Source: Clostridia bacterium (GTDB taxonomy: Bacteria > Bacillota > Clostridia > Oscillospirales > Acutalibacteraceae). Taken from it: 59,902 nt of DNA. Both the position numbers and the translations under genes were made by a program. The stretch lies in the NCBI GenBank assembly GCA_017461235.1, contig JAFTYU010000035.1, forward strand, positions 1 to 59,902, in the 5' to 3' direction. Shown piece by piece: positions 15,351-47,008 of this stretch (positions are counted from its first letter, which is position 1; each line of letters opens with the position of its first letter). The notes under the pieces were generated by a model that ran no database searches, was not told the DNA's origin, and was given only the letters and a program-made list of their open reading frames with translations.

Positions 15351-15398
15351 AAAAAACGGCTGTAAAAAACTTTTGAAAGTTTTTTACAGCCGTTTTTT
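15351..15398. terminator. Bidirectional terminator with 22-bp stem
   Basis: Arms 15351-15372 and 15377-15398 around a TTGA loop, with A6 and T6 ends. It serves rsmA on the plus strand and touches the stop codon of the dockerin gene on the minus strand. Confidence 0.93.
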
Positions 15399-16762
15399 CA
15401 GTTGAATGTTTCTATAAGAGTTTCCAGAATTATTTTGTCGGTCGTGTCAATTTTTCCGTCATTGTTCAAATCCGCTTTTGCTTTTTCAAGTTGGGATATA
15501 TCTTCTTTTTTCATCATCTTATTAAATGCGAAAATATCAAGGGCATCAACACAATAATCACCGTTAAAATCACCGCGTATGCCGTCAAATATTTTATATC
15601 CGCCATCCAAGGATTGATTGACAATCTGCGTATAATCCTGCAAATTTACTGTATTGTCTTCATTAAATTCGGCGCCTTTCTGCTCAATGTCGCTCAAAAA
15701 ATCAAGTTCGTTGATGTATCTTTCCGATATCATAACGTCAAGCACATCGCACACGCTGTCTCCGTTAATGTCACCCTTGACACACAAAAGGAAATCCGCC
15801 GTGCTTTCGCCGTTTTTCAACTCAACAACAGTTCCCGTTCCCCAAAATCTCAATGTATTGTGAGATGGAGTCACCGTATAATCGGCATTGCTTTCGAAAA
15901 GCATATTGCTTTTATTTACGAGATATTTGTCTGTGTATAAATATTGTTCTTCAAGATCAGGTATAACGCTTTCGTTATAACCAAGGAACATACCGCCTGC
16001 CGATGTCACCGCCGCAACAGGAGCACTGTTCACGGGAGCAACCGCAAAACTCTCTGACGTGAAAACATTTTCTCCCACATTTAAAACATTCCTGCCAAAA
16101 ACCGTAAAGGGCGTCTGAGAAGGCTCTTTAAAATCAAGGGAACGCACCGTTACACCCTCAATATTTTCAGGTATAAACACAACTTCATCCTGTGTTTTAA
16201 TTGATGTTACGGTAACACTCTCCTGTATTGAATATTCAAAATTATTCGTATCATCTGTATCGGTCTCCTTAAAGCCGACAGGTGTTTTTTTATAAATATC
16301 GTTTTCTTCGTCGTTATCGTCTGTTATAAATTCTTTCACATAGATTTTTATATCATTGGCACTTTTACGGGATGTTTTTGCTCCGAGCACAAACTCACAC
16401 ACCGCAGTTTTTGCTGTTTTGCTAACACCCGTGTGGGAAACAAACGCACCCACACAACCCGAGCCGTCGGCAAGAGTCCCGAAAACCCAGACTCCCGGAA
16501 AATTGTCAGTTTTCTCCCCTTCTGCAGAAGGAGTTCCTGATGCGGCGCCTTCTTTTAATTCATATAGTTGGGTATCATACTCAAGCACCGTAAATAGAGA
16601 AACAAGCTTTTCTATGTTGTGCGCATAAATCACAACGCGTATTTCTCCATCGGCAGTTTCACTCATCTGCGCACTTACGGGGATATCTGTCTGCGCAAAT
16701 GCAGTAGTATTCAGGGATATAACAATGATAATAACAGAAAGAATGACTGCAAGTTTTTTCAT
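15398..16762 (-). CDS. Secreted protein with dockerin-type repeats
   Basis: A 454-residue protein. I choose the ATG at 16762 (MKKLAVILSVIIIVISLNTT, a signal peptide) because AAGGGGG precedes it; the frame stays open upstream into the RNase P terminator. Residues 30-150 (PVSAQMSETADGEIRVVIY, LEYDTQLYELKEG) resemble a cohesin-like beta sandwich. The C-terminal part has dockerin calcium-loop units: GDINGDSVCDVLDV, GDFNGDYCVDALDI and ADLNNDGKIDTTDK. Dockerins bind cohesins to assemble extracellular complexes, so this may be a scaffold-associated protein. The only transcription signals directly upstream are those of rnpB. Confidence 0.75.
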   Translation of the reverse strand: MKKLAVILSVIIIVISLNTTAFAQTDIPVSAQMSETADGEIRVVIYAHNIEKLVSLFTVLEYDTQLYELKEGAASGTPSAEGEKTDNFPGVWVFGTLADGSGCVGAFVSHTGVSKTAKTAVCEFVLGAKTSRKSANDIKIYVKEFITDDNDEENDIYKKTPVGFKETDTDDTNNFEYSIQESVTVTSIKTQDEVVFIPENIEGVTVRSLDFKEPSQTPFTVFGRNVLNVGENVFTSESFAVAPVNSAPVAAVTSAGGMFLGYNESVIPDLEEQYLYTDKYLVNKSNMLFESNADYTVTPSHNTLRFWGTGTVVELKNGESTADFLLCVKGDINGDSVCDVLDVMISERYINELDFLSDIEQKGAEFNEDNTVNLQDYTQIVNQSLDGGYKIFDGIRGDFNGDYCVDALDIFAFNKMMKKEDISQLEKAKADLNNDGKIDTTDKIILETLIETFN

Positions 16763-16781
16763 AATATCCCCCTTCCTATAT

Positions 16782-16812
16782 AAAAAATTGCAAGAGCATG
16801 GGACCCTTGCAA
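16782..16812 (-). terminator. Terminator of the RNase P RNA gene
   Basis: A 7-bp stem (TTGCAAG/CTTGCAA, 16788-16794 and 16806-16812) with an 11-base loop, followed on the minus strand by six T. It sits only 20 bases before the start codon of the downstream gene. Confidence 0.75.
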
Positions 16813-16826
16813 ACCTTTGACACAAT

Positions 16827-17170
16827 ATTCGGTAAAACTGTAAGCCGGGTTCTGTCGTTTAAGGCAATCATCTATCTACACCTTGCGTTGCCGCAAGGTT
16901 CAAGCCACCCTTCGGGGTTGCAAAAAATCGCTGTCCGGCTGACTCCCCTGTCGGTGTTGCATCGGGTAGGGTTTACATGGCCGTGATGTCTCCACCACGC
17001 CGGTGAGCTCTTACCTCGCCTTTCCACCCTTACCGAAAAATCGGCGGTATATCTCTGTTGCACTTTCCCTAAGGTTACCCTCGGCGGCCGTTAGCCGTTA
17101 CCCTGCCGTGTGATGCCCGGACTTTCCTCGTCTGTGCAAAGCACATCCGCAACTGCCCATTTTACCGAAT
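16827..17170 (-). ncRNA. rnpB: RNase P RNA, bacterial type A
   Basis: About 344 nt on the minus strand. Conserved blocks are present in the right order: GAGGAAAGTCCGGGC near the 5' end, AGGGTGGAAAGGCG-type core, GTAAACCCTACC, and the 3' block GACAGAACCCGGCTTA. The two ends pair as helix P1 (5' ATTCGGTAAAA with 3' TTTTACCGAAT), which fixes the boundaries to within a few bases. It is the catalytic RNA that trims tRNA 5' leaders. Expressed from its own promoter at 17176-17204, divergent from gltX. Confidence 0.96.
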
Positions 17171-34600: not shown

Positions 34601-36301
34601 ATTGTCTGTTACTTTCAGGTCAACGATTTTACTTGCCTCGTTGTGAACGTTACCACCCTGAACCGGGTTATAGTTCCACGGAACACCGTTATAATCACCG
34701 GGCTCGTAAGGATATGAGCCTGTACCGTAATATGACTGCTGAACAAGTCGTCCTGTATCGTTACAGTTGATAAGGTTAACGTTACTACTTGTATTGTAAC
34801 GCCATGAAGACGTACCGACCTTTGATTTAAAGTCAACCTCGGTTATTTTGGAAGTACCGTATTTGCTTACGGATGACATAACTCCATTAGTTAAATCTTC
34901 AAGGTAAGTAAGGGCGCCGCCCCAATGCAAATCAATACCTATTTTGTAATCCGTGCTTGAAAGATAAACCATATTATCGGGAATGGTAGCATTGGATGTT
35001 GTAACCGATTTCAGAGAGAAATCCATAAAGTCAACATCAAGACCTGTGAAAGATATTGAAGTTATCTGTGTCTGTGTTGTGCCGTCAAGGAAACCGTCAA
35101 TATAACCTTCAAAAACTCCGTCTTCGGACGGCTCAAGGAAAAACTCCTCGGCTGTTTCACCCATAAGCATTATTCCCTTTACATATGCATCAGAAGAATA
35201 ATGTATTTCATAGCGGTTGAAGGCGGAAACAGTTTTGCCGAACGTGTATTTATAATTAGCCGTGGGAACAGTAATTGCACTGCCGTTAACAGTAACCGAA
35301 ACATTCTCGGATTCCTTTACGTTTACGGTGAATTCAGCAGATTTGTCACCATAAGTAACTGTTATAGTCTGAGCTCCTGTTGTTTCAAGAACCTGTGGTG
35401 AACAATAGAAGCCGGATTCAAGAATTTCGGTAGTGCCGTCAGGATATTTAACAGAAATGGCAAGACCGCTCGTATTAAGCTTTTCGCCCAGACAGTAGTT
35501 AAGCTTATGGGGTAGGGAAGCAATTTCCAGCTCACCCAACAAAAGCGGTTCCCATTTTGAATACAAGCTATAACTGCTTGATGCAATATCGGTATCTTCA
35601 GTAATTCTGTCACCTGTGCCGTCAGGACCTGTGTACCATCCTGCAAAAACAAGCCCATCTCTTTCGGGTTGCGGAAGTGTACCATAAGTACCGCCCGAAG
35701 AATATGTATATGTCTTTCTGAAAACGATGTTTTGTGAATATTCATAAACTTCCGATTCACAAATTCTTATATCGGAAACCGTTGCATAGCTTCCTGTGGT
35801 GTTATTATCAAATCTTATCTGAATAAACGCCGCATTTGACGGTGTGGTAAAACTCCACATGTTATGACCGTATTGGGTCGCTAAGGCACTTTCGTGAGAA
35901 ATAAACGTATCCAAAGAATCAAAATAGAAAACAAAGGACTCAAAATTTGTAACAGTTCCGTTTGCGTTGTATTCAAAGATGTAAGTTGTATCGGGTTCAA
36001 CGGGCATAGAATAATAGCCTGTGTTTGAACCCATTGAGTGAGCGGTATATATCTCACTCGTAGAATCATTCGTAAGAGTAAAACTACCCGCAGAAATATC
36101 GTGGGTTATTGTGCCCCCTGTAAGATTCGGACTTATAACGCCTGAATTTACATGGTTTGCCCATTGCTCAAAAACAAACAGATTGTCGAACGCAAGTTCA
36201 TAAACATCTGACGCCGCAAAAGCAACGGGATTCAAAAAGCTTATTGCAAGTAAAATTGTACTGATTAATATTACAGCAATCTTTTTCAGGATTTTTTTCA
36301 T
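31634..36301 (-). CDS. Large secreted multidomain SASA-type carbohydrate esterase with dockerin repeats
   Basis: A 1555-residue protein. In order: signal peptide (1-29, ending PVAFAA); a carbohydrate-binding-like beta domain (about 30-190); one InlB-type repeat (PERDGLVFAGWYTGPDGTG); an Ig-like domain (GLAISVKYPDGTTEI); an unassigned region of about 350 residues with SLVFWGDTEGANQNF; GLUG-type repeats (about 850-1010; FDGQGYTVNGLYI, GGLCGHNAGAIENCY); dockerin-like calcium loops (DIDGDGALDVIDC, DFDFDGVPFTADD, DLNGDEVIDSKDI); and a C-terminal SASA/CE esterase with VIILCGQSNAYG (nucleophile Ser) and MWHQGESDSG. It probably deacetylates plant or host glycans at the cell surface and may join a cohesin scaffold. 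Confidence 0.85.
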   Translation of the reverse strand: MKKILKKIAVILISTILLAISFLNPVAFAASDVYELAFDNLFVFEQWANHVNSGVISPNLTGGTITHDISAGSFTLTNDSTSEIYTAHSMGSNTGYYSMPVEPDTTYIFEYNANGTVTNFESFVFYFDSLDTFISHESALATQYGHNMWSFTTPSNAAFIQIRFDNNTTGSYATVSDIRICESEVYEYSQNIVFRKTYTYSSGGTYGTLPQPERDGLVFAGWYTGPDGTGDRITEDTDIASSSYSLYSKWEPLLLGELEIASLPHKLNYCLGEKLNTSGLAISVKYPDGTTEILESGFYCSPQVLETTGAQTITVTYGDKSAEFTVNVKESENVSVTVNGSAITVPTANYKYTFGKTVSAFNRYEIHYSSDAYVKGIMLMGETAEEFFLEPSEDGVFEGYIDGFLDGTTQTQITSISFTGLDVDFMDFSLKSVTTSNATIPDNMVYLSSTDYKIGIDLHWGGALTYLEDLTNGVMSSVSKYGTSKITEVDFKSKVGTSSWRYNTSSNVNLINCNDTGRLVQQSYYGTGSYPYEPGDYNGVPWNYNPVQGGNVHNEASKIVDLKVTDNEIYVKCRPLDWGKTAEHITPSYMEAWYTLEDGLMRATCRFVDYSGYPSATTTQELPAFYCVEPLNTFVYYSGGEPWSDSNTKTTESSLVFWGDTEGANQNFYCNENWAAYIGDDADSFGIGLYCPGQTNMFTGVFNRNLSTTVSPATESPTSYIAAVDTFTFKSYSPYSYAYYITTGNVDTIRNNFKAVATNPADPCNVGYTNGFCNNCGKYQVPALTTDKYDLNNDGTKDNVYEISNAGELHWFSANVNAGDNSANAVLLCDITDNTDVLSSYGMLNASKSDLRVWEPIGNATYQYNGMFDGQGYTVNGLYINDSTKSYAGLFGYMGSGATVEKTGVDNSYFSGNEYIGGLCGHNAGAIENCYTYCTVASGNSYIGGAVGYTSGTVKNCYNAGVASAVNNYCGGFAGYATSSTKLSGCYYLADCAKDGSGVSQNGSGNAAKGSTTADAAGTSICKTIEEFASGEVAYLLQSATTEQLWGQKTNAQGSCPVFDKSGEYKVIASENAAYSLVDIGDIVEDEVIDSNDYQQLVNMVLSGDAFSDSDYYNADIDGDGALDVIDCSLLEKLVNGHQINMSVYLKGDFDFDGVPFTADDISAVEKAINNTRGLSTIQKYVCDLNGDEVIDSKDIEMLKQQKITATAPVYLSMRETMELKEKTANVIILCGQSNAYGASPLTDAVKASVGDTDFSNIKIKYNNINSADGLSNWRTYYSNNAFETFRLGIGGQADLWFGPEVGLSYYLATNEETKDEKWYIIKYTAAGTFLGGNWLYESNYNNASNAENIYNDLGGYLADNMIAYVNNALNEISAMHGADNVNIRSFMWHQGESDSGFEAWANQYGDLQNILVNKVRSAFESRDADAHIGFVDGGIAAYNSNTFYNPLLSADQTYNGWVYSDTVNTHKTNNASLWYVPAATTKNIIGKTSAGLYQNSTSSTTKLANSIWIDTSTCKSKYENNNENSEYDGAHYCGDSMFKIGQWYAYGMLQVSDF

Positions 36302-36500
36302 ATAAAACCGCCCTTTTCAATCTTTGCGCATACCAATGTTATTTTACTATATAAGAGAAAATATTGCAATATGTGATTTCAGGGCATGTCCCGGTACGGC
36401 AGCTTAAATTTTTTATCATCTGAAATCCATATTTTAATTCTTTAATTGAACTTTTTATATTAAAATCACAGCAATAATTTTAAAAAATCGTATGGAAAGT

Positions 36501-36529
36501 TTGAAAAAACATTTCAAATATGATATAAT
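36501..36529 (+). promoter_or_regulatory. Consensus promoter of the DUF2798 gene
   Basis: TTGAAA (36501-36506), 17-base spacer, TATAAT (36524-36529). The predicted start near 36536 gives a 110-base leader that includes the structured element. The rest of the gap 36302-36500 is AT-rich and shows nothing else. Confidence 0.88.
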
Positions 36530-36556
36530 ATACAAAAATAAATATAGAAATAAACG

Positions 36557-36621
36557 ACACATGTAGCATCTCAGGATGTGTAAATCTGATTACGGTACGG
36601 ATTTGCAGGCATGTGTTTTTT
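36557..36621 (+). promoter_or_regulatory. Structured leader: three-way junction closed by a terminator-like stem
   Basis: P1 (ACACATG 36557-36563 with CATGTGT 36610-36616) encloses P2 (36567-36570/36575-36578, TCAG loop) and P3 (36582-36588/36598-36604, one G-T pair, 9-base loop), followed directly by a T-run (36616-36621). The ribosome binding site lies 12 bases further on. The layout fits a riboswitch or attenuator, but it does not match any aptamer consensus that I can recall. Confidence 0.5.
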
Positions 36622-36645
36622 GTTTTGCCAAAAAGGAGATTTATT

Positions 36646-37230
36646 ATGCCAAGAAATCAATTTCAAAGAATGGTTTTTGCTTTCATAACTGTTGTAATTA
36701 CCGTTCACGCTTATGTATTTTACAGTCTTTATGTTATTCACGGTGAAATGTTTATGCAAATCACGGGTGAAAGCGGAGTTATTGCCGCAATCAACAAAAT
36801 GGGAGGCGTTCCCGTTTTTGGTACACCTGTTCCTATATGGGCAGTTGTGGTTATTGAGTTTGTACTTGCCTACACTCTTGAGAACCTTCTTGGGTCGCCG
36901 CTCTCTTTCAAGCTTGCTTGTAAAAATTTCGACCCCCGCACAACCCATCCTGTTCTTTTCGAAACAGCAATTATCTGTGCAACAGTCGGAATTATGTGCC
37001 CCGTTATGAGCTTTATCGCTGCATTCCTTTATTATAACTATCAGGCAGGCTTCAATATGTGGACGCTTCTTGCAGATTGGCTCAAGCTCGTATGCTTCAA
37101 CTTCCCGTTTGCATTCTTCACACAGCTTTTCTTCATTCAGCCTGCCGTAAGAAAGATATTCAAAACAATCTTTGCTAAAGATATTAAAAACAGAGTGAAG
37201 CTTGAAGAAAAATCTTCTGTAAACAACTGA
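36646..37230 (+). CDS. DUF2798 membrane protein
   Basis: A 194-residue protein with AAAAGGAG before the ATG at 36646. It opens with MPRNQFQRMVFAFITVVITV, the typical DUF2798 N-terminus, continues with HAYVFYSLYVIHG and has four to five helices; two DUF2798-like units appear (about residues 5-75 and 95-180, second unit with VMSFIAAFLYY). The family has no known biochemical role. It has its own promoter, a structured leader and its own terminator, so it is a one-gene regulated unit. Confidence 0.8.
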   Translation: MPRNQFQRMVFAFITVVITVHAYVFYSLYVIHGEMFMQITGESGVIAAINKMGGVPVFGTPVPIWAVVVIEFVLAYTLENLLGSPLSFKLACKNFDPRTTHPVLFETAIICATVGIMCPVMSFIAAFLYYNYQAGFNMWTLLADWLKLVCFNFPFAFFTQLFFIQPAVRKIFKTIFAKDIKNRVKLEEKSSVNN

Positions 37231-37242
37231 AAAAGATAGCTT

Positions 37243-37278
37243 AAACGGAGACTCTTCATAAAAAACCAGTCTCCGTTT
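37243..37278 (+). terminator. Terminator of the DUF2798 gene
   Basis: An 11-bp stem (37243-37253 with 37268-37278) with a 14-base loop and a short T-run, 13 bases past the stop. Confidence 0.8.
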
Positions 37279-37444
37279 TACTATATTCATACACCCGATT
37301 GAATTTCAGGATTGATAACATCGGTGATACGCTATTAAGAATTGTTAATGGTGAGTATAAGAAAAAATAAATATCAAAACCATTTCATATAATTCTAAGC
37401 ACAAAGCCAAATGTGATAATAATTTTGACGAAAGGACCTCAAAT

Positions 37445-37729
37445 ATGTATAAACCTAAACCAATTGATACAAAAGATATTAAACTTCCGGAAGAGCTTCT
37501 CGCTCTGACTGAAAAAATTGCTGAAAACGTTCATGATGTGTGGGCACAGGGACGAATTTCCGATGGATGGACGTACGGAGAAATTAAAGATCCCGGGAAG
37601 AAAACGACGCCGCTTCTCATACCTTATGATGAATTACCTGACAGTGAAAAAGCGTATGACCGTAATACTGCCTTAGAAACGTTGAAGCTGATTGTTAAAC
37701 TGGGTTATTCAATCAAAAAATCTGAATAA
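37445..37729 (+). CDS. Stand-alone RyR-domain protein
   Basis: A 94-residue protein that is essentially one RyR domain: YKPKPIDTKDIKLPEELLAL, then ENVHDVWAQGRISDGWTYGE, LIPYDELPDSEKAYDRNTA and TLKLIVKLGY, all hallmark segments of the repeats first named in ryanodine receptors. Bacterial copies are small soluble proteins of unknown role, sometimes near defence or phage genes. GAAAGGACC precedes the start. It is not obviously co-transcribed with its neighbours and marks the left edge of the accessory region. Confidence 0.88.
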   Translation: MYKPKPIDTKDIKLPEELLALTEKIAENVHDVWAQGRISDGWTYGEIKDPGKKTTPLLIPYDELPDSEKAYDRNTALETLKLIVKLGYSIKKSE

Positions 37730-37988
37730 ACCCCTTCCTGTTCTACATTTAATCATATGATATACTTCAATCATTGAAAGACAAAAGAGATATACCGTAC
37801 AAAAAATGTAAAATTGTCCAAAACAACGACTCCGTGCAAAAGTAACTACTAATGGCAACATATACTTTTTTGAGCCGTAGTATTACAATTTCATTAAACT
37901 ATTTTACAAAAAACATTAAAACCACTATGTGAGGAATTTTTTGTAAACAAAAATGACAATCAGTTCTACAATTAAATAATTTTCATTT

Positions 37989-38025
37989 AAGAGAACCGGA
38001 TTTCTTGCTCCGGTTCTCTTTTTTT
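37989..38025 (+). terminator. Orphan rho-independent terminator
   Basis: A 12-bp stem (37989-38000 with 38009-38020, 8-base loop) followed by at least five T. It is 260 bases past the RyR stop, so it may end a separate small RNA. Confidence 0.8.
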
Positions 38026-38102
38026 CTCCCCCCCTCAAAGCGGCTTTTTTAAATCGTGGTATATATAATATATCGATTACGAGAAATGACGGAGAACACA
38101 TT

Positions 38103-38239
38103 ATGGTTGAAATGCCCGAACTTATGAAATCTTATAAAGAAACAATGTTGGCGAAGGGATAATCATATCGGCAACAGATTCCGGATAAACAAAGATACTT
38201 GAAATTAAATTTGAAGATGTCGGTGTTGAAAATATATAG
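38103..38239 (+). pseudogene. Degraded short gene fragment
   Basis: An ATG at 38103 reads MVEMPELMKSYKETMLAKG and stops. In the next frame the text continues as IISATDSG, stop, then TKILEIKFEDVGVENI, stop. The three pieces look like one former protein broken by a frameshift and a nonsense codon. The parent family is not recognised. Confidence 0.35.
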
Positions 38240-38533
38240 GGAATTGGTTGAGAAATGTTGTGTGAAAATTTTTATATAACTTTTTATTTATCGAATAAAT
38301 GCCTTTCCCCCCCTTGAAAGTCCACATATAAAAACATGATATCATAAATACACAAAAACTATGTATTTGAGGAGGTGCTTCTTTGTCCTAAGGAATAAAA
38401 CACAAAAAAGAAGGGATGTGGTATTTGGCAACACTGCTCTGGCAAAGCAATCAATAACCAAGTTTTCATTTTCGCAATGCATAAAATGATTTAATTAAAA
38501 ACAAACATGAATATTTGAAAGGGTTTTTTTGTT

Positions 38534-38803
38534 ATGAAGAATAATTATCAGACTATTAATGCAACAAAAACAATGTATGGCAGTAAACAGGTTGACCTTG
38601 ACGGTGGCACCTGGCACGGTGGCAGACAAGGCGACCTTGACGGTGGCACCTGGCACGGTGGCAGACAGGGCGACCTTGATGGTGGCACCTGGCACGGTGG
38701 CAGACAAGGCGACCTTGACGGTGGCACCTGGCACGGTGGCAGACAGGGTGACCTTGACGGTGGCACCTGGCATGCGGAGTATAATTCTTTGAATTCTGAA
38801 TAA
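38534..38803 (+). CDS. Repeat precursor peptide with DLDGGTWHGGRQG units
   Basis: An 89-residue peptide. Residues 1-19 (MKNNYQTINATKTMYGSKQ) look like a leader; residues 20-71 are four 13-residue units, first V-DLDGGTWHGGRQ and then G-DLDGGTWHGGRQ; residues 72-80 repeat the first nine residues; AEYNSLNSE ends it. AAAGGG lies 10 bases before the ATG. All base differences between units (Gln, Asp, Gly and His codons) are silent, so the peptide is under selection. The shape (leader plus repeated cores) is that of a multi-core RiPP precursor or a poly-modifier; HGG at each unit end could be exposed by cleavage. First gene of the nine-gene cluster, 49 bases before the next. No family recognised. 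Confidence 0.85.
   Translation: MKNNYQTINATKTMYGSKQVDLDGGTWHGGRQGDLDGGTWHGGRQGDLDGGTWHGGRQGDLDGGTWHGGRQGDLDGGTWHAEYNSLNSE
38591..38773 (+). repeat. 39-bp coding tandem repeat, 4.7 copies
   Basis: Units at 38591, 38630, 38669, 38708 and 38747 (last one 27 bases). The unit has 26 G/C in 39 bases, much richer than its AT-rich surroundings. Since 39 is a multiple of three, other frames on both strands are also open, which is a by-product. Confidence 0.95.
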
Positions 38804-38852
38804 TAAGAACTTGCGACGTTGGTCGCTTATTAATGAATAAGGGGGTTGTTGT

Positions 38853-39239
38853 ATGTTGTACCTTATATTAATTCCGATAATTGCTATAGGAATAACTTTC
38901 GCTATTAAAATTCAATCATTAAAAGAGCCGAATAACTTCGTTTTCAATTATGCGGCTAAAACGAAATTTGAAAACAAAGAACACTCCTATAAATTTAACA
39001 TTCAAAAATATAGTTCGGGGTATAGGTGTTACATTGAACAAATCCCTTCTTTTCGAGGCAGGGCAACCAATAACTATATACCGCATTATTGGGTGGAAAA
39101 TTCAACGGGTAAACACTACATTTGTTGGACCGGTAAAATAACGTATTCAGAGCAGGCAAAGACTCTTTGTCGTAATTGGGCTGATGCAACACAAATGTTT
39201 ATTGATACCGGTAAGCCTGCACCGGGATTTGAAAGGTAG
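38853..39239 (+). CDS. Membrane-anchored YICW protein (candidate E2-like)
   Basis: A 128-residue protein behind AAGGGGG. Residues 1-20 (MLYLILIPIIAIGITFAIKI) form a membrane anchor; the rest is soluble. Its domain shares with the proteins at 39496 and 39858 a pattern of YRCYIEQIP (central strand), a histidine (PHYWVEN), then HYICW (Cys91), and a helix WADATQMFIDTG. A His followed by a conserved Cys and a helix is the arrangement of ubiquitin-conjugating E2-type active sites, and an E1-like gene lies downstream. E2-like function is therefore an inference from motif and context; it is not a direct family match. Confidence 0.6.
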   Translation: MLYLILIPIIAIGITFAIKIQSLKEPNNFVFNYAAKTKFENKEHSYKFNIQKYSSGYRCYIEQIPSFRGRATNNYIPHYWVENSTGKHYICWTGKITYSEQAKTLCRNWADATQMFIDTGKPAPGFER

Positions 39240-39250
39240 GATACTATTGT

Positions 39251-39493
39251 ATGGAAACATTTGAGATTATTATAACCATCATATGCTTGATTGCATATAC
39301 GATTTTCGCAGTATGGGCAATTAGTAAATGCAAAAAGTTATCTACCGGCATTGCGAGTACCATATGCTTAGCTGCCGGAAGTGCCGGTATATACTTTGCC
39401 GCCTCTGTTGTAGCTGTAGTTTTAATTTGGCTATTAAAGGCTTTATTAGTTATTGGCGCGATAGCATTGGTACTGTATTTAATTGGAGGCTAA
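39251..39493 (+). CDS. Small two-helix membrane protein
   Basis: An 80-residue protein with helices at about 5-25 (IIITIICLIAYTIFAVWAI) and 35-78 (glycine/alanine-rich, possibly two passes). AGGAT lies upstream, and the next gene starts two bases after its stop. No known family. Together with the anchor of the preceding protein it suggests that part of the system works at the membrane. Confidence 0.6.
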   Translation: METFEIIITIICLIAYTIFAVWAISKCKKLSTGIASTICLAAGSAGIYFAASVVAVVLIWLLKALLVIGAIALVLYLIGG

Positions 39494-39495
39494 TA

Positions 39496-39861
39496 GTGAA
39501 ATACGAGCATAATTTTTATACTACAAGGGATAAGTTATTGGACATAGAGTTTCTTTTTTTAGATTTGGGTGCAGAGATTGGCTGGAGAGGGTATGTTCTG
39601 TCAGAGATAAACTATAAACAATTTTCTTCAAAAAGATCTGATGTTTATACGGACACGCATTTATACATCGATGAAAATCAGCACAGATATATTGATGCAG
39701 ATAAAGATTATCCATACATTTGCTGGACCAAGCCGATATTTAATTTAGATACAATGCATGAATTGGCAGCTATGTGGGCTGAAATTACATCATATTACAT
39801 TCGTCATGGCGGAGATTTTGCTTTTATTCAGAAAAAGTTAAAAGGAGCAGGTGTCATATGA
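39496..39861 (+). CDS. YICW protein, second copy (candidate E2-like)
   Basis: A 121-residue soluble protein starting with GTG at 39496, set by GGAGG six bases upstream. It aligns closely with the product of the next gene: YEHNFYTTRDKLLDIEFLF against YEFNMYRTSDKFLDIKFLF, then IGWRGYVLSEINY against SDWRAYILTDINY. It has THLYIDE, YPYICW (Cys76) and the helix WAEITSYYIRHGGDF. The conserved Cys and upstream His are the candidate active site. It overlaps the next gene by four bases. Function inferred only from context. Confidence 0.65.
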   Translation: MKYEHNFYTTRDKLLDIEFLFLDLGAEIGWRGYVLSEINYKQFSSKRSDVYTDTHLYIDENQHRYIDADKDYPYICWTKPIFNLDTMHELAAMWAEITSYYIRHGGDFAFIQKKLKGAGVI

Positions 39862-40265
39862 TGAGATACGAATTCAATATGTATCGAACATCTGATAAGT
39901 TTTTGGATATCAAGTTTTTGTTTGTTGAAATAGCTCCATCAGATTGGCGAGCATATATTTTGACAGATATTAATTACCAAAGAATATCGCAGGAACGTTC
40001 AGATTCTATTACGGTTATACATAGATTAACTGAATATGATGAATCTATAAGAACAAAGATTTTTACTTTTATAAGAAACAACAATATTCCTTATTGCAAA
40101 CAAACAATTCATTATATTTGTTGGTCATCTGTTGTGAAGAATCTTGAAAGTATGAGAGAAGTTGCAAAAACATGGTCAGAGATAACATCATACTACATTC
40201 AACACGGTGGATCTTTCGAAACAATTCAACCCAGACTTAAAGCAAGAGGGATAGTAACATTATGA
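39858..40265 (+). CDS. YICW protein, third copy (candidate E2-like)
   Basis: A 135-residue paralogue of the preceding protein, with a longer insert before the Cys motif: VIHRLTEYDESI, then IHYICW (Cys88), and the helix WSEITSYYIQHGGSF. The two paralogues lie back to back with ATGA overlaps on both sides, which implies equal dosage. If they are E2-like, one may have a different partner or substrate. They could also be a new enzyme family unrelated to E2; structure prediction would decide. Confidence 0.65.
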   Translation: MMRYEFNMYRTSDKFLDIKFLFVEIAPSDWRAYILTDINYQRISQERSDSITVIHRLTEYDESIRTKIFTFIRNNNIPYCKQTIHYICWSSVVKNLESMREVAKTWSEITSYYIQHGGSFETIQPRLKARGIVTL

Positions 40266-41752
40266 GAAAAATTATGAAGCTTATTAAGGAGATTTTAAAA
40301 ATGAAGTGTAATACCGATAAAAGAAATGTATCATCTAATGAACCATGGATCTTTACCGCTGAGGTTTATGATGAAATCAAGAGAACCATAGGTCGTAGAA
40401 AGCCGGAACAAGGCGGTATCCTTGGCTCTAGTGACGGCAAACACATTGATCATTACTATTTTGACAAAACCGCAAACCGCTCTTCTGCAAGCTATACCAT
40501 GGATACGAAGGCATTAAATGAAGTGATTCATAACTGGAATGATAATGGCGTCCAGTTGGTAGGCATTATCCATTCGCATCCTCAGGGCGTAAATCGACCT
40601 TCGTCAGGCGATATGGAAACAGCAAAGCACATTATCGAAACCATCGATGTTCAGGGTAGGTTTTTTACACCTATAGTACAAGTATCTCCTAAGCTTACTG
40701 GAGAAATCAAGATTTACCCTTACACATTTGAGCAAACAGTCGAAATGAAACCTCAGTCTATGGAAATTGAAGAAAGCGCGGTGGATAAAATCAAAGAACG
40801 TCATTTGAGAGCACTTGATAAAAAAGCTCCGAACCGTTTTAAACGAATTGAATCTATTTTCCCCGAAAATCTTATGAAAAAAAAGGTTGTAATTTGTTTC
40901 GGATGTGGTGGTTCCGGGCCGTTCATTGAAACCCTTGCCCGTTGTGGAGTTGAAACTTTTGTAAATGTCGATGGAGATATCGTTGAAGATACAAACATTG
41001 CAACCCAGGGTGCCTATATTCATGAAATCGGAAAATATAAAGTGGATGTTCTCGAAGAAAGGATCCGCAATATCAACCCTTTGGCGCGTGTTGTAAGCAT
41101 TAATCGTTATTTAGATGAGAATATGACTGATGACGAGTTTGCACTCATTACCGGAATCAAGAATTACAATTACGAAGATGTATTGCTTCTAGGGTGCACA
41201 GATAATTTCTATGCTCAAGATCGATGTGCGCAGTTGGCACTCAAATTCGGTGTACCATACTTGGCGGCACAGATTTTTGAAAAAGGCAGAGGTCATGAAG
41301 TAATTTTTTCTTATCCGGGTGTTACAAAAGCTTGCCCCAGATGTATGCTGGAGAGCAGGTATAAAAAGTTTTTGACATCATCGCAAAACGCAACCGGTTC
41401 ATCTTCAGGAGCGGCAGTATGCGTAACAGACTATCTTAATTCCATTAAAGCATATATGGCAATCTACATTCTCTGTTACAACGAACAGCAAACACCGTTT
41501 TATCATCTTCTTGATAAGTTTGCCGACAGAAACTATTTGATGACAAGGTGTTCCGATGAACTCCAAGCACCTGCATTTGAACCGATAGCAGAGTTGGAAT
41601 CTAAAGAAACGGACCTTACCTTTCCGTTTATGACTGTAGCTATCGAGCAAACAGTAGAAAAAGACTGCCCCCTTTGTTATGGAACAGGAGACATCAGTAT
41701 AATTAAGAATAGAATCCCGGATACGAGATATCTACCTAATATAAGTATTTAA
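40262..41752 (+). CDS. JAB/JAMM peptidase fused to a ThiF/E1-like adenylation domain
   Basis: Up to 496 residues; an inner ATG at 40301 with AAGGAG may be the main start. The N-terminal JAB domain has the complete JAMM zinc motif: Glu49 in PEQGGILG, then HSHPQGVNRPSSGD (His104, His106, Ser114, Asp117). From about residue 205 a ThiF/E1 domain follows: VVICFGCGGSGPF (nucleotide loop), NVDGDIVEDTNIATQ, LLLGCTDN, CPRC (358-361) and CPLC (469-472) as a four-Cys zinc site, and Cys387 (GAAVCVTDY) as a possible thiol carrier. JAB removes or trims ubiquitin-like modifiers and ThiF adenylates C-terminal carboxylates, so one protein could both process and activate the repeat peptide (inference). Confidence 0.85.
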   Translation: MRKIMKLIKEILKMKCNTDKRNVSSNEPWIFTAEVYDEIKRTIGRRKPEQGGILGSSDGKHIDHYYFDKTANRSSASYTMDTKALNEVIHNWNDNGVQLVGIIHSHPQGVNRPSSGDMETAKHIIETIDVQGRFFTPIVQVSPKLTGEIKIYPYTFEQTVEMKPQSMEIEESAVDKIKERHLRALDKKAPNRFKRIESIFPENLMKKKVVICFGCGGSGPFIETLARCGVETFVNVDGDIVEDTNIATQGAYIHEIGKYKVDVLEERIRNINPLARVVSINRYLDENMTDDEFALITGIKNYNYEDVLLLGCTDNFYAQDRCAQLALKFGVPYLAAQIFEKGRGHEVIFSYPGVTKACPRCMLESRYKKFLTSSQNATGSSSGAAVCVTDYLNSIKAYMAIYILCYNEQQTPFYHLLDKFADRNYLMTRCSDELQAPAFEPIAELESKETDLTFPFMTVAIEQTVEKDCPLCYGTGDISIIKNRIPDTRYLPNISI

Positions 41753-41779
41753 CATTATAACTCGAAAGGACTTGGCAAT

Positions 41780-43228
41780 ATGTTTAATTGGAAAAGACTT
41801 TGTTCTAATGAAAACAGTTTTGAAGAACTTCACGATGAACTCAAAGCAGGCAATGGATTATATATTCTTGACAACGTCAAGATGCCTGAAACCTGTGGTG
41901 ACTGTGTTTGCACTATTGAATTCAAATATTACTCTGAAAATCGAATTGTTCTGTCTTGCTCCGGTGCGCCCGTTGACTATTTAGGCACTGATACTCAGAT
42001 TGCAGAATGGTTAACTACTGGTACAAAGGAGTTTGGCAACTTTGATGAGGTTAAAACATTTCTTTCCAAATTCAAAAGTGATAGATGTTTAAACTCAGAA
42101 GATGACATTATCCCGGTAAGCGTTGTGGAGAATGGTACATCGGCAGAAGTTGCTAAACCCAGACCTAAAGTTAAATATGACAAGGACAATCTCACCGTGC
42201 CCGAATCCAATAAAAAATATATTGTCATTGATAAGGATAAACTTATTCTTGAACTAAACGATGAGATTTTTGGTCAAGAAGAAAACATTGCGAAAATCGC
42301 ACACTTAGTGTGCAATCATCTTGCTACCAAACATAAATCAAGACCTTTGTCCGTCTTCATTTATGGACCGACCGGAATCGGTAAGTCTGCTGTTATTGAA
42401 GCTTTGGTTGCTGCTATAAACAGGCAAATTGATAAGGATAAAGCTTTTGCATACAGACCTGTTGATTGCACGCAGTTTCAGGATAGAGCCGATATTTCAA
42501 GGCTGACCGGTGCTGCTCCTGGTTATGTAGGTTTTGATGAGCCCGGCGTTTTTGCAATTCTTGAAGATAACCCAAATACCGTCTTCGTTTTCGAGGAAAT
42601 AGAAAAAGCAGCCAACAATGCCACTGAGGTAATTATGCAGGCAATGGAAACCGGAAAACAGGAAACCAACGGAAAAACACTCAAAAGCGGAGAGAATTAT
42701 TACGATCTTTCCAATTGTATTATTTTCTTCACCAGCAATATCGAGATAAATGAAAAGAAAAACATCGGCTTCGCATTTCCCGTTAACCACGACAGAAAAG
42801 ATGCACAAGCGAAAGCCATTTGCAGCACTAATATTGCGAGAATCATCGGAAAAGAAACTAAAGAAGCAAAAGTTAAACTTGCAGGTACAGGCAAATTCAG
42901 AAGAGAAGTAATTGGCAGAATGAACGCAATAATCAAGTTCAATGCAATTACAGGTGATGCCATAAAGGATGTTGCTGCAAAATGCATTAGCAATCTCGCA
43001 GAAAAAGATCATTATCTCTACGTAACTGAAATTGAAACCGGTGTGCTTCAAGAGTTCTTAAACGTGACCGCAGGAGAAGTCGAAAACTTTGGAGTTCGTG
43101 CGGTACGTGATGAAGCGCAATACTATTTTTCTGATGCGTTAAGAGTATACTCGCATACTCATGCGGACTATGCCCATATTAAGATAACGGGAACTCTTGA
43201 TAATGTTGTGATCGTGGAAAGCGAATGA
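41780..43228 (+). CDS. Single-ring Clp-type AAA+ unfoldase
   Basis: A 482-residue protein behind AAAGGA. Residues 1-150 form an N-terminal domain with DCVCTIEFKYYSENRIVLSC; it resembles no standard Clp N domain. Residues 155-480 match the second AAA+ ring (D2) of ClpA/ClpB: Walker A GPTGIGKS (196-203), pore loop GAAPGYVGFDEPG, Walker B VFVFEEIEKA, sensor FFTSN. NIGFAF (IGF, 329-331) falls at the position of the ClpA IGL loop that docks to ClpP. The D1 ring is absent. It is therefore a ClpP partner, most likely of the ClpP encoded next. The private N domain probably recognises this system's substrate. Confidence 0.88.
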   Translation: MFNWKRLCSNENSFEELHDELKAGNGLYILDNVKMPETCGDCVCTIEFKYYSENRIVLSCSGAPVDYLGTDTQIAEWLTTGTKEFGNFDEVKTFLSKFKSDRCLNSEDDIIPVSVVENGTSAEVAKPRPKVKYDKDNLTVPESNKKYIVIDKDKLILELNDEIFGQEENIAKIAHLVCNHLATKHKSRPLSVFIYGPTGIGKSAVIEALVAAINRQIDKDKAFAYRPVDCTQFQDRADISRLTGAAPGYVGFDEPGVFAILEDNPNTVFVFEEIEKAANNATEVIMQAMETGKQETNGKTLKSGENYYDLSNCIIFFTSNIEINEKKNIGFAFPVNHDRKDAQAKAICSTNIARIIGKETKEAKVKLAGTGKFRREVIGRMNAIIKFNAITGDAIKDVAAKCISNLAEKDHYLYVTEIETGVLQEFLNVTAGEVENFGVRAVRDEAQYYFSDALRVYSHTHADYAHIKITGTLDNVVIVESE

Positions 43229-43314
43229 TGTAAATACACTTTATTCCCTTCTCCCCTGTGCGATTATATAAAAGTAAAATTACAAACACATAATAAACGG
43301 AGGAAATCCCTTAT

Positions 43315-43893
43315 ATGAATACAATTGTTAAGAGCAGCCATGGTATTACGCTGATTCCTGTAACAAGCAAATTGCTTGCGGAACGTAAAATTTTTATCGA
43401 AGATGAAATCACACCGGCATCAGCATGCGAAACAGTCAGAGCCCTTATGCTTCTTGTAAAAGAAGATCCTGACAAGCCAATTGATATTTATATTAATTCG
43501 CCCGGCGGACGGGTCGATGCGGGCTTAATGATTTACGATACGCTAAAAGGTATGAAAACAGAAGTTAATTTGCACTGCATCGGAATGGCTGCATCTATGG
43601 CAGCGGTCATTCTTGCCGGTGGTAAAAAAGGCCATCGCTTTATCCTGCCGCACAGCAAGACCATGATACATGAGCCATTAATTTCAGGCGGCGTCGGAGG
43701 TAGTGCAACCTCAATTCAACGCACAGCAGAATCAATTATGGAAACAAAACGACTCACTGTAGAATTGCTTGCCAAAGACACAGGTAAAAAAGAAAAAGAT
43801 ATTGAATCCGCTGTCGCGTTTGATAATTATATGAATGCAGAAGAAGCCATCGCATTTGGTATTTGCGATAGCATAGAGTATGAGCTTGTATAA
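43315..43893 (+). CDS. ClpP-family serine peptidase
   Basis: A 192-residue ClpP with the whole triad: Ser94 in GMAASMAAV, His119 in MIHEP and Asp170 in FDNYMNAEEA. INSPGGRVDAG is the oxyanion region. GGATSIQ-like GGSATSIQRTAESI forms the handle helix. Length and motifs match active ClpP, not the inactive ClpR forms. GGAGG precedes the ATG. Its place between a Clp ATPase and a TraG-like ATPase indicates a dedicated copy and not the housekeeping clpP, which normally stands near clpX or tig. The N-terminal loop sequence differs from house ClpP, as expected for a private partner. Confidence 0.92.
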   Translation: MNTIVKSSHGITLIPVTSKLLAERKIFIEDEITPASACETVRALMLLVKEDPDKPIDIYINSPGGRVDAGLMIYDTLKGMKTEVNLHCIGMAASMAAVILAGGKKGHRFILPHSKTMIHEPLISGGVGGSATSIQRTAESIMETKRLTVELLAKDTGKKEKDIESAVAFDNYMNAEEAIAFGICDSIEYELV

Positions 43894-43904
43894 GGAGAAA
43901 AAAG

Positions 43905-45197
43905 ATGGATAAAGTAATACTCGCAAAGAACGTGGTTCTGGATGGAGGCTTGGGTTCAAGCCGTCCCAATGACAATCAAATGATTTTCGGTGGTTCCGGC
44001 TCAGGAAAATCCATGTCGATATTTCTTCCGACCTTGTATAACATAAGGGACAGTAGCTTTATAGGTACTTTTGCGAAAAGAGGCGTTGTATCTAGTGGTG
44101 TGGCTTATTTTAAGAAGCAAGGGTACAAGAATTATGTTTGTAATTTAGCTAATCCTGAAAAAGATGATTTTCTCCCTGACCCACTGGATTACGTTACATC
44201 CGATGATGATGTTCAAGAACTTGCTCGCCAGATAGCCAATGGGAATCCGGCATATCAACACTCGGTAAAATTTGATCCTTTTTGGAGAGAAGCCTGTGAA
44301 GCACTGCTAATCGGTTTAATTTATTATGTTCTGATGACTGCAGAGCATCCTTGCATGAAGAAAGTAATCGATCTCTTTTATTCACTTAAAATCAGGGAAG
44401 ACGGCAAAGCAATAACTACAACTTTAGACAGGCAAATTGAATTTCTTGAGACTAACGCACCTGATTCAATTGCAGCGAGAAAGCTGGGCTCCTTCCGTCA
44501 GCTGCCTTACGCTACGGCAACATGCGTAAGAGATGACCTTGAAAAAGCCATTCAGAATATGTTTCCCGTATCTATTCAGGCGGCAATGTCAGATGAAGCA
44601 TACATTGATTTTGAAAAATTCGCAACAGAGAAATCTGCTATGTTTATCATCACAAGCCCGGTAAGAACTTCCCAATATGGTTTCGCAAATCTGTTATTCT
44701 CAATTGCTATTCGTCAGTTAATGGAGTTTGCTGAGAGACGAGAAGACAACCGTCTTCCCAGACACGTAAAATTACTTTTCGATGATTTCAGCTGCGGATT
44801 CCCTATTATGAACTACGAAAAAGCCATTTCCACCTTTAGGGCTGCGGGTATCTCTTCTATGATGCTTTGTCAATCCCTGTCACAGTTGGACGCAACATAT
44901 GGACCTGATAACAGCACGGTCATTCTTGATAACTGCAGTACACTCGTTTATCTTCCCGGTGGCATGAATAAAAAAACTTGCTCGTATGTCAGTGAAATGA
45001 TCAACTTGCCTTTGGATGAAATTATGTTTATGGAGATGGGCAATGTAGTTGTGTTCCGATCCGGCAAGCAGCCTGTTATTGCTCCTCGATATGACACTCC
45101 CGGTGATCCGCTTTATCAAAAATTTATTTCCTGCGGAACGACCAAAAAGAAAAAGCAAAAGAAGGAGAGAGAAGCATCAAATACTGTTTCTCGCTAA
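43905..45197 (+). CDS. VirD4/TraG-like ATPase without membrane anchor
   Basis: A 430-residue ATPase of the type IV coupling protein class. Walker A: MIFGGSGSGKSMS (Lys35); Walker B: KLLFDDF (about 289-295); the motifs IGTFAKRG and SMMLCQSLSQLDATYG are typical of TraG/VirD4. Unlike conjugation proteins it lacks the N-terminal membrane helices, and no relaxase or mating genes are near. It starts 12 bases after clpP with AAGGAG. In this context it may pump a peptide or protein substrate; a leftover from a conjugative element is the other possibility. Confidence 0.82.
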   Translation: MDKVILAKNVVLDGGLGSSRPNDNQMIFGGSGSGKSMSIFLPTLYNIRDSSFIGTFAKRGVVSSGVAYFKKQGYKNYVCNLANPEKDDFLPDPLDYVTSDDDVQELARQIANGNPAYQHSVKFDPFWREACEALLIGLIYYVLMTAEHPCMKKVIDLFYSLKIREDGKAITTTLDRQIEFLETNAPDSIAARKLGSFRQLPYATATCVRDDLEKAIQNMFPVSIQAAMSDEAYIDFEKFATEKSAMFIITSPVRTSQYGFANLLFSIAIRQLMEFAERREDNRLPRHVKLLFDDFSCGFPIMNYEKAISTFRAAGISSMMLCQSLSQLDATYGPDNSTVILDNCSTLVYLPGGMNKKTCSYVSEMINLPLDEIMFMEMGNVVVFRSGKQPVIAPRYDTPGDPLYQKFISCGTTKKKKQKKEREASNTVSR

Positions 45198-45209
45198 GCG
45201 ATTTCAGTT

Positions 45210-45410
45210 ATGAATAACACAAAGCATAATGTATTTGTCAAGCATCTTAAATTGACATTGCAGGAAAATTTCAAACCAAAAGCACAACCAATAACCTCGC
45301 TTGATGATTTATTTGCGGAAGATGACGAAGATGTATGTAACGATGAGATAACGAAGGAACTGGAAAAAATGTTTGATGAGCTGTTTAGCCCATCAGACGA
45401 CAATAATTAA
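45210..45410 (+). CDS. Small acidic protein at the end of the cluster
   Basis: A 66-residue protein with a basic first half (HNVFVKHLKLTLQENFKPKAQ) and a very acidic second half (LFAEDDEDVCNDEITKEL, ELFSPSDDNN). It follows the TraG-like gene by 12 bases but has only a poor ribosome binding site. It could be an adaptor or assembly factor of the ATPase; no family recognised. Confidence 0.5.
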   Translation: MNNTKHNVFVKHLKLTLQENFKPKAQPITSLDDLFAEDDEDVCNDEITKELEKMFDELFSPSDDNN

Positions 45411-45522
45411 AGCAGCATGACAAAACACAGAAAGTTACAAATATTCGGCATAATATCAATATAGCGCATTTTGTTTTCACCACACTTTGAACGCGTAAAA
45501 CAATTGATTGAATTCTTTGAAG
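45411..45522. other. Short AT-rich spacer before the hairpin array
   Basis: No open frame or clear signal; together with the array and tRNA fragments the gene-free stretch runs from 45411 to 45924. Confidence 0.5.
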
Positions 45523-45705
45523 AATGCGAAGCATTGTATATCATCAATTCCACAGGAATTGCATATCATCACGGCAACGCCGTGAATATCATCATTGCGA
45601 AAGCAATTTAATACACGCTACGCGTGATGATATACAGCCTGACGGCTGATGAGATAAAACGATAGCTCTGCTATCGTTGATGATATGCCATTGCTTTCGC
45701 AATGG
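45523..45705. repeat. Nested array of eight hairpins with mirrored spacers
   Basis: Eight short stems: 45523-45535, 45546-45560, 45571-45583, 45594-45607, 45614-45626, 45635-45648, 45658-45678 (9 bp) and 45688-45705 (7 bp). The three left spacers contain ATATCATC; the three right spacers contain its reverse complement (GATGATAT, once GATGAGAT). The spacers can thus pair with each other to form a tree-like fold with hairpins on each level. No coding content. Confidence 0.9.
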
Positions 45706-45708
45706 ATA

Positions 45709-45742
45709 AAAAAAGAACTAAGCTTTCGCTTAGTTCTTTTTT
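45709..45742. terminator. Strong bidirectional terminator
   Basis: A 15-bp stem (45709-45723 with 45728-45742, TTTC loop) with A6/T6 ends. It can end the nine-gene operon on the plus strand and the tRNA-like remnant on the minus strand. Confidence 0.88.
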
Positions 45743-45761
45743 GGTGGGAGCGGGTGGATTC
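45741..45761 (-). repeat. 21-bp copy of the tRNA-Tyr 3' end (att-like)
   Basis: The 21 bases 45741-45761 recur exactly at 45924-45944, where they are the 3' end (with CCA) of tRNA-Tyr. Between the copies lie further small hairpins (45761-45773, 45781-45793, about 45814-45841) and a T-arm-like piece at 45853-45868. This looks like an integration scar or a broken tRNA copy. Confidence 0.75.
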
Positions 45762-45885
45762 ACGCTCCGCGTGAAGTTCGTTCGCTACGCGAACCGTCGC
45801 ATTTTATGTCCCTCGCGTCTCCGCCAAGGCGAACCGACGCGAGATGGACAACGTGGTTCGAATCCACCATATACACTATTCAAAC

Positions 45886-45917
45886 AAAAGAAAAACAGAC
45901 ACCCTGTTGGATGTCTG
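45886..45917 (-). terminator. Terminator of the tRNA transcript
   Basis: A 9-bp stem (45896-45904 with 45909-45917, TGTT loop) followed by a T-rich run on the minus strand, 7 bases past the tRNA-Tyr CCA. Confidence 0.8.
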
Positions 45918-45924
45918 CTTTTCT

Positions 45925-46009
45925 TGGTGGGAGCGGGTGGATTCGAACCACCGAAGGCGGTGCCAACAGATTTACAGTCTGCCCCCTTTGGCCACTCGGG
46001 AACACTCCC
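45925..46009 (-). tRNA. tRNA-Tyr (GTA)
   Basis: A long-variable-arm tRNA of 85 nt including encoded CCA. Acceptor stem GGGAGTG/CGCTCCC (one G-T pair), anticodon stem and loop with GACTGTAAATC (anticodon GTA), class II variable arm, T-arm GGTGGTTCGAATCCACC. Transcribed leftward together with the tRNA-Thr just upstream. Confidence 0.95.
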
Positions 46010-46040
46010 ACATATTCTTTTATTCAATTGTGAATAAAAA

Positions 46041-46116
46041 TGGAGCTGGTGGACGGACTCGAACCCCCGACCTGCTGATTACAAATCAGCTGCTCTACCA
46101 ACTGAGCTACACCAGC
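46041..46116 (-). tRNA. tRNA-Thr (TGT)
   Basis: 76 nt including encoded CCA. Acceptor stem GCTGGTG/CACCAGC is perfect; anticodon arm GCTGATTTGTAATCAGC gives anticodon TGT. The T-stem GGGGG/CCGTC contains a G-G mismatch and one G-T pair, which is unusual. It is the first gene of the leftward tRNA pair. Confidence 0.92.
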
Positions 46117-46228
46117 GTCTCAACGCTTGACTACTATATCATAAATATTTGTGTATGTCAAGAGAATTTTTTAATTTTTTTATAAATTGTTTTGGTAATA
46201 AAACATTCAGAAAAATACTTTCCAAAAC

Positions 46229-46259
46229 AAACTCGCCCAAGCTCTCCCTGAGCGAGTTT
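46229..46259 (-). terminator. Terminator after pflA
   Basis: An 8-bp stem (46229-46236 with 46252-46259) with a loop of 15 bases, just past the pflA stop; TTTGTTTT follows on the minus strand. Confidence 0.7.
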
Positions 46260-46264
46260 ATAGT

Positions 46265-47008
46265 TTATTTTCTTACTCTTTTTATTCCTTCAAGAATAAG
46301 CTTCTTCGCATCCGCCGCTTTCTGAAACGGCAGAGAATCCATTCCTTCAAGGGGATATTCTATTCCCATAGCCTTGTATTTAGTTATACCCATGGTGTGA
46401 TACGGTATCACGTCAAGTGCCTTAAGATTTTTCAATCCACCTATGAATTCACCTAAACCAACAAGGTCATCTGCATCGTCGCTATAGCCTTCCACCACAA
46501 CATGCCTTATCCACACGGGAACCTTCTTTTGTTCAAGGTATTTTGCAAACTCAAGTATATGGGCATTATCTTTCCCGGTAAGGCTCTTATGCTTTTCGCT
46601 ATTTATTTGCTTTATATCCAGCATAACAAGGTCAGTAAAACTCATAAGCTCGTCAAGTTTTTTAATGTACGCCGTATTTTCCGGGTTATATGTAACCCCT
46701 GATGTATCAATGCAGGTGTGAATACCTCCCGATTTCGCTTTTTTAAAAAGTTCAGTCAAAAAATCAACCTGCAACAAAGGTTCACCGCCGGAAACGGTTA
46801 TACCGCCCTTTGAATAAAAAGAACGATTTTTATTAAACTCACTCAACACTTCATCAACCGTTATGCTTTCCCCTTTGCCTGTTTCCCATGTATCGGGATT
46901 ATGGCAATAAAGGCATCGCATAGGACAGCCCTGCAAAAAAAGCACATATCTTATTCCCGGGCCGTCCACCGTGCCGAAGCTCTCTTTAGAATGGATATAT
47001 CCTGTCAT
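46265..47008 (-). CDS. pflA: Pyruvate formate-lyase activating enzyme
   Basis: A 247-residue radical SAM enzyme. The cluster motif is LFLQGCPMRCLYCHNPDTW (Cx3CxxC), with the SAM-binding GGEPLLQ following, and the pattern MLDIKQINSEKHKSLTG and PYHTMG typical of PflA. It abstracts a hydrogen to install the glycyl radical. Here the target glycine lies in a separate small protein encoded 2 bases upstream, so coupling of translation would give the activase and its substrate together. No separate ribosome binding site is visible. Confidence 0.95.
   Translation of the reverse strand: MTGYIHSKESFGTVDGPGIRYVLFLQGCPMRCLYCHNPDTWETGKGESITVDEVLSEFNKNRSFYSKGGITVSGGEPLLQVDFLTELFKKAKSGGIHTCIDTSGVTYNPENTAYIKKLDELMSFTDLVMLDIKQINSEKHKSLTGKDNAHILEFAKYLEQKKVPVWIRHVVVEGYSDDADDLVGLGEFIGGLKNLKALDVIPYHTMGITKYKAMGIEYPLEGMDSLPFQKAADAKKLILEGIKRVRK

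Follow-up and report, generated by a model that had tools for sequence, protein, structure and literature searches.

What does a bacterial gene cluster do that joins a short repeated peptide to a protease domain of the JAB type, a ubiquitin-activating-type (E1) enzyme and a Clp-type unfoldase? The cluster in question lies at positions 38534-45410 of contig JAFTYU010000035.1 from a Clostridia bacterium (Acutalibacteraceae), which was analysed as a stretch of 59,902 nt referred to here as the window. Its core, in the order peptide gene, YICW gene (for a small protein of a family so called here), JAB-E1 fusion gene and unfoldase gene, is conserved in other genera, and we see about an even chance that it encodes a ubiquitin-pathway-like peptide-conjugation system whose modifier is some 13 residues long. 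The cluster comprises ten open reading frames (ORFs), all on the + strand, separated in order by 49, 11, 2, -4, -4, 27, 86, 11 and 12 nt, both -4 gaps being ATGA overlaps; an earlier note on this DNA had described nine one-direction genes with such overlaps or short gaps, and was right about order, strand and overlaps but one gene short in its count. The features are as follows.

38534-38803, + strand: repeat peptide gene (89 aa) with units GGRQGDLDGGTWH; proposed modifier precursor, with orthologues at 12 of 14 JAB-E1 loci
38853-39239, + strand: YICW protein 1, with a hydrophobic segment at the N-terminus; accessory copy
39251-39493, + strand: small membrane protein (80 aa); accessory, accompanies YICW 1
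39496-39861, + strand: YICW protein 2, GTG start; proposed E2-like transfer protein
39858-40265, + strand: YICW protein 3, with invariant H55 and C88; structure model of mean pLDDT 89.7
40262-41752, + strand: JAB-E1 (ThiF) fusion, a JAMM protease and adenylating enzyme with a CxxC...CxxC pair
41780-43228, + strand: single-AAA Clp unfoldase (ClpA/ClpC D2-like) with its own N-terminal domain, an aromatic-VG pore loop and a GF loop
43315-43893, + strand: dedicated ClpP; accessory, 44% identical to the genome's other ClpP
43905-45197, + strand: VirD4/TraG-like ATPase; accessory, its ORF beginning nearly at the Walker A motif
45210-45410, + strand: small acidic protein; accessory
37445-37729, + strand: RyR-domain protein (PF02026, 1.4e-35) upstream of the cluster; membership uncertain

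Pfam bears out the identities that the earlier note had given the larger proteins, with matches to ThiF (8.3e-19), Prok-JAB (3.4e-9), AAA_2 (6.7e-18), CLP_protease (2.1e-56) and T4SS-DNA_transf (3.8e-30). The peptide and the acidic protein had no Pfam match at all, the YICW and membrane proteins matched only below curated cut-offs, and domain searches assigned none of these six (the peptide, three YICW proteins, the membrane protein and the acidic protein) to a curated family. Structured RNA was discarded as an explanation, an Rfam search over 36300-46300 having returned two tRNAs only.

The order of the core genes recurs at other loci. A scan of genome_contigs returned ten loci (L013-L022) from Clostridia, Ruminococcaceae, Oscillospiraceae, Massiliimalia and one 6.4-kb contig of a Bacteroidales bin, and an unfoldase-led scan of viral_contigs added L059; since the loci of the sampled G genomes and the named loci are partly identical contigs (L009=L015, L010=L014, L011=L019, L012=L021), the main set is counted as the window plus L013-L022 and L059, that is 12 loci, near-duplicates L013/L015 and L020/L021 included, and 14 JAB-E1 loci once L049 and L053 join. 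The core order was found at 10/10 loci with further sequence beyond JAB-E1, the contigs of the remaining two of the 12 being cut, and the first YICW gene is preceded, on its own strand, by the peptide ORF at 12/12 loci, or 12/14 with L049 and L053. Of the two peptide-less loci, L053 is only a remnant and L049 is rearranged and cut by the end of its contig. The earlier note's refuting condition, that peptide and enzymes never co-occur elsewhere or form a chance patchwork, thus does not hold: peptide and enzymes are one conserved unit. In the rearranged locus (L049 7543-8652, - strand) the contig stops at the C-terminal part of JAB-E1; the other pieces are an ORF resembling the N-domain of the unfoldase, a fragment from the unfoldase C-terminus and a YICW protein.

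In L059 and L020 the core amounts to four genes and about 3.5 kb. The window shares YICW 1, the membrane protein and the number of three YICW copies with L013, L014 and L015. The trio of ClpP, TraG-like and acidic proteins lies downstream in the window and upstream in L014 and L015, was not seen in the available DNA of L018, L019, L020, L021, L022 and L059, and could be sought only as far as the cut contigs of L013, L016 and L017 reach. With the trio at 3/12 loci only, several other contigs being cut, we regard it as accessory, and the membrane protein is accessory too. The role of translocation ATPase once proposed for the TraG-like protein finds no support.

The peptide itself is conserved in a way that indicates translation. 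In the window the repeat is a 39-bp array of 4.6 copies with 95% matches (TRF), and its unit GGRQGDLDGGTWH recurs in L017 and L022, with GGRQGDLNEQGDGWH in L009, GGRQGDLPEGTFC in L011, GGRQGDLDGGTWC in L018, GGRQGELPPGTFR in L059 and a diverged ...SLPPGTFRNS in L020 and L012. The consensus is GGRQG[DE]L..GT[WF][HCR] in units of 13 or 15 residues, one to five per locus, behind a variable N-terminal part; the shortest peptide ORF has 22 aa. A ribosome site precedes nine of the ten peptide ORFs examined as well as that of L059, the start in L016 being unclear. Pairwise codon differences between units, synonymous to non-synonymous, are 13/0 in the window (four full units) and 51/0 in L009, with 6/8 in L010, 6/4 in L018 and 1/1 in L011; the synonymous changes and the ribosome sites were the grounds for rejecting an untranslated repeat. 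A second peptide-like ORF in L016 (205-432) has YGARQGDLEDDT fused to a hydrophobic C-terminal segment.

JAMM enzymes usually cut after GG. The peptides of L011, L016, L017, L022 and L059 have no residue after the last H, C or R, and in the window, L009, L010 and L018 the array is followed by a short tail. As the short peptides end at W/F-H/C/R and not at GG, the cut site is left between two schemes, one cutting after GG and the other before GG to leave a WH, FC or FR end; the exact ends favour the second. These precise ends (L011/L019, L016, L017, L022, L059) also suggest that the C-terminus is used.

The enzyme that might use it carries Prok-JAB at 47-125 and ThiF at 205-420 in one protein, the JAB domain N-terminal to the E1. 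With residue roles taken from family knowledge, the JAMM residues E49/H104/S105/H106/S114/D117 and the E1 residues G214/G216/D239/N245/Q249/K260/D314 are invariant in nine JAB-E1 sequences, near-duplicates included, and in the four sequences of set A5; L059 agrees, and the JAMM and E1 ATP sites are intact. The only invariant cysteines in the nine are C358, C361, C469 and C472. The best solved relatives are UBA5, TcdA, MccB and ThiF, with MccB at 1.2e-11 and PaaA at 3.5e-9 among the E1 matches, and BubCD, a JAB-E1 protein with solved structures, matches across the JAB-E1 junction at 4.3e-4 with a five-sequence profile (A1); it is absent from the matches of a nine-sequence profile (A4) at a cut-off of 1e-4.

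The YICW proteins retain a His/Cys pair (H55, C88) in 17/17 copies beside JAB-E1, and both residues are lost in 3/3 stand-alone homologues, whose genomes (G158, G239) gave no JAB-E1 match. A conserved Cys with an upstream conserved His is an E2-type feature, and a role in transfer fits a pair kept beside JAB-E1 and lost elsewhere. The model of YICW 3 has strands followed by two C-terminal helices; no E2 relatives were among its top fold matches and an E2 (UBC) fold is not confirmed; the YICW profile drew two chance-level matches in a PDB sequence search and one weak match (0.0056) in PHROGs. In G158 and G239 the stand-alone homologues (L050, L051, L052) are YICW 1-like and paired with a membrane protein, a separate two-gene module.

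The unfoldase is closest to ClpC but is not ClpA or ClpC proper, having one AAA domain and scoring 101.7 bits against a cut-off of 993. It carries the features of a ClpP partner, an aromatic-VG pore loop and an [ILMFV]G[FL] loop: VG and GF are invariant in eight sequences, the unfoldases viewed read [GS][YF]VG and [ILMF]GF, and the window's GF loop is KKNIGFAFP. Its N-terminal domain is its own; a kinship with YICW was dismissed at an hhalign probability of 0.3%. The ClpP in the window has what we take to be its triad at S94/H119/D170, and the genome has one other clear ClpP, a third match being weak (3.2e-5). The loops of the ATPase fit the Clp link of the earlier note; the ClpP is accessory. 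The TraG-like ATPase falls below the cut-off of NF045973, a CD1115-type VirD4 coupling protein (202.2 against 250 bits).

We propose that the JAB domain would cut the peptide precursor or strip the tag, the E1 domain would adenylate the peptide's C-terminus, and a YICW protein would accept the peptide on its invariant Cys and hand it to a target; the single-ring unfoldase, with its own or the housekeeping ClpP, would then destroy or remodel tagged proteins, and the whole may defend against phage or mobile elements. Trimming, activation and transfer had been suggested before, and like conjugation, the cut site, the targets and the defence role they are what we infer from gene order and sequence. 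In its full form, a peptide too short to fold, single or in polyubiquitin-like repeats, that JAB-E1 and YICW attach covalently to proteins by a C-terminus other than glycine and that a dedicated single-ring Clp unfoldase recognizes, we advance the proposal tentatively and would sooner expect some part of it to fail. Cap2, in the sections of PMC10097602 cited here, needed a C-terminal Gly or Ala, which weighs against a His, Cys or Arg end.

A stable hairpin (z <= -2) lies between peptide and YICW genes at 6/6 loci with one or two units (L017 -4.02, L019 -2.07, L020 -4.41, L021 -4.07, L022 -3.54, L059 -3.99) and at none of the six with at least three units or several peptide ORFs (window -1.58, L009 0.68, L010 0.48, L013 0.68, L016 0.95 and 0.31, L018 0.76); these counts include related loci and become about four versus four when relatives are counted once. 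The stems are unlike in sequence between loci. We suggest that an excess of peptide over enzyme would come either from a repeated unit or from a stable hairpin after a one- or two-unit gene, an excess expected of something consumed, and equally expected of the precursors of ribosomally synthesized and post-translationally modified peptides (RiPPs).

That a RiPP cluster explains the locus, with ThiF adenylating the peptide as MccB and PaaA do, JAB separating the repeats and YICW binding or modifying the peptide, we consider unlikely: the MccB and PaaA matches, a short gene with repeated cores, the hairpin ahead of the enzyme genes in six loci and the non-Gly C-termini all speak for it, while the ten window genes include no exporter and no further RiPP enzyme and the neighbourhoods resemble defence islands. 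Also against it is the core unfoldase, with its pore loop and its ClpP-type loop, for which we know of no role in RiPP routes. In an equally improbable account the E1 would conjugate some larger protein, much as Cap2 of CBASS conjugates a cyclase, and the peptide would only regulate JAB-E1 or the unfoldase, whether as inhibitor, as sensor or as pseudo-substrate. It would agree with the variable N-terminal part and the one to five units, and Cap2 does conjugate a protein without a ubiquitin fold, according to the sections of PMC10097602 cited here; yet the four-gene cores leave no small protein other than YICW as modifier, and the exact endings of the short peptides point to a C-terminus in use. 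As for chance adjacency, or a peptide ORF that is untranslated, the change of side of the ClpP-TraG-acidic trio, which follows the core in the window and precedes it in L009 and L010, is the point in its favour, but a core order kept at 34-66% JAB-E1 identity, which refutes chance for the core, and a motif conserved through synonymous changes behind ribosome sites make it very improbable.

Several known systems resemble the cluster in part. In the Pup-proteasome pathway a small unfolded protein tag likewise brings proteins to an AAA unfoldase and protease, but through a glutamine-synthetase-like ligase rather than E1 and JAB, and Pup has about 60 residues. MccB of the microcin C7 pathway and PaaA perform ThiF-type adenylation of a short peptide with a non-Gly C-terminus, and the E1 part of the cluster protein is similar to them in sequence; to our knowledge neither pathway has a JAB or Clp partner, and the exporter that accompanies precursor and ThiF enzyme in an MccB-type RiPP cluster is missing among the ten window proteins. 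If the peptide is a modifier, it is unlike any that we know. Type II CBASS (Cap2/Cap3) and Bil operons share an E1, a JAB and a Cys transfer step in a defence setting, whereas here the E1 is fused to JAB and not to E2 and neither a cyclase nor a ubiquitin-like protein is present, no CD-NTase being found among the ten proteins with Pfam, NCBIfam and PADLOC. Cap2, too, acts on a protein that is not a beta-grasp (PMC10097602, in the sections cited). Among the closest systems, too, are the type 6e operons of Iyer 2006, in which, according to the cited part of PMC1779556, JAB-E1 occurs with RWD-like proteins and with modifiers made of one to three beta-grasp domains, each of 70-75 residues, and Bub (bacterial ubiquitination-like) systems, so named in the cited part of PMC13373217: the JAB is fused ahead of the E1 in an operon, type 6e also has modifier repeats, and BubCD matches over the same junction. 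The units here have 13 or 15 residues instead, in peptides down to 22 aa, no beta-grasp was matched by Pfam (which can miss divergent ones) among the ten proteins, and a Clp unfoldase, part of the core here, is not named for type 6e in section 14 of PMC1779556. We read the cluster as a variant of bacterial ubiquitin-like operons; a literature search by titles and abstract openings, covering neither preprints nor most subscription papers, found no published description of this gene set.

The cluster, carried by a few gut bacteria, is rare and patchy in its distribution, a pattern consistent with mobility. A JAB-E1 search of 300 family genomes at 1e-15 gave seven matches, five of them full-length (own genome, G106, G292, G111, G123), the others being set aside as a 231-aa unrelated ThiF-type ORF without JAB (G016) and a short remnant (G282); there is no second JAB-E1 in the own genome. 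A YICW profile found the same five genomes together with G158, G196 and G239 at about 1e-7 to 1e-9. The peptide as a query at 0.01 recovered four of the five (own, G106, G292, G111), missed the divergent peptide of G123 and returned three chance matches: the weak ones in G088, G192 and G262, like a second one in G106, lack the motif, and no other component lies in the stretches examined around them. Wider draws found the own genome alone, 1/394 for the order and 1/398 for the phylum. JAB-E1 was not matched in plasmids and gave two MoeB-type matches only in phages; in viral_contigs one profile scan found nothing and another the L059 contig only, and a degenerate DNA pattern for the peptide matched a single stretch there, on a JAB-E1-bearing contig. 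In the same-genus genome G251 the pfl genes of the right flank are present and the cluster is absent.

The neighbours include type I methylase and specificity genes (L020), HsdR (L059), a cytosine methylase with ABC-3C (L009), LeoA/LeoB, a NERD-helicase and WYL (L022), WYL (L017), tubulin-TIR and RyR (L049) and RyR (window). An NB-ARC-TPR gene neighbours L011 and had no PADLOC match; the PADLOC input was ten neighbours picked beforehand as defence-like, so its outcome gives no rate of defence genes. Conjugation-type ATPase and Replic_Relax genes lie on L020 and L059, and a RyR homologue 65% identical to the window's adjoins the tubulin-TIR protein and the partial cluster in L049. Near the cluster L010 also encodes (13669-16827, - strand) a protein of 1053 aa with a match to RNA-dependent RNA polymerase of the eukaryotic type (PF05183, 2.2e-13), and the mobile, cluster-bearing L059 contig a putative amidoligase (14787-15752; PF12224, 1.9e-71). 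In the window, several distinct perfect palindromes with similar TGATGATAT-like spacers between them, judged by eye, lie just downstream of the cluster (45540-45740), and a 19-bp piece of the tRNA-Tyr 3' end occurs a second time some 180 bp away (45743-45761 and 45926-45944), as if after integration, with no copy on the cluster's other side within the window.

If the peptide is indeed a modifier, ubiquitin-type chemistry would need no folded modifier, and a peptide with far fewer residues than ubiquitin or Pup would do. The modifier would be encoded as a repeat array, like polyubiquitin, and bacteria would have a route of tag-directed Clp proteolysis built from E1 and JAB parts.

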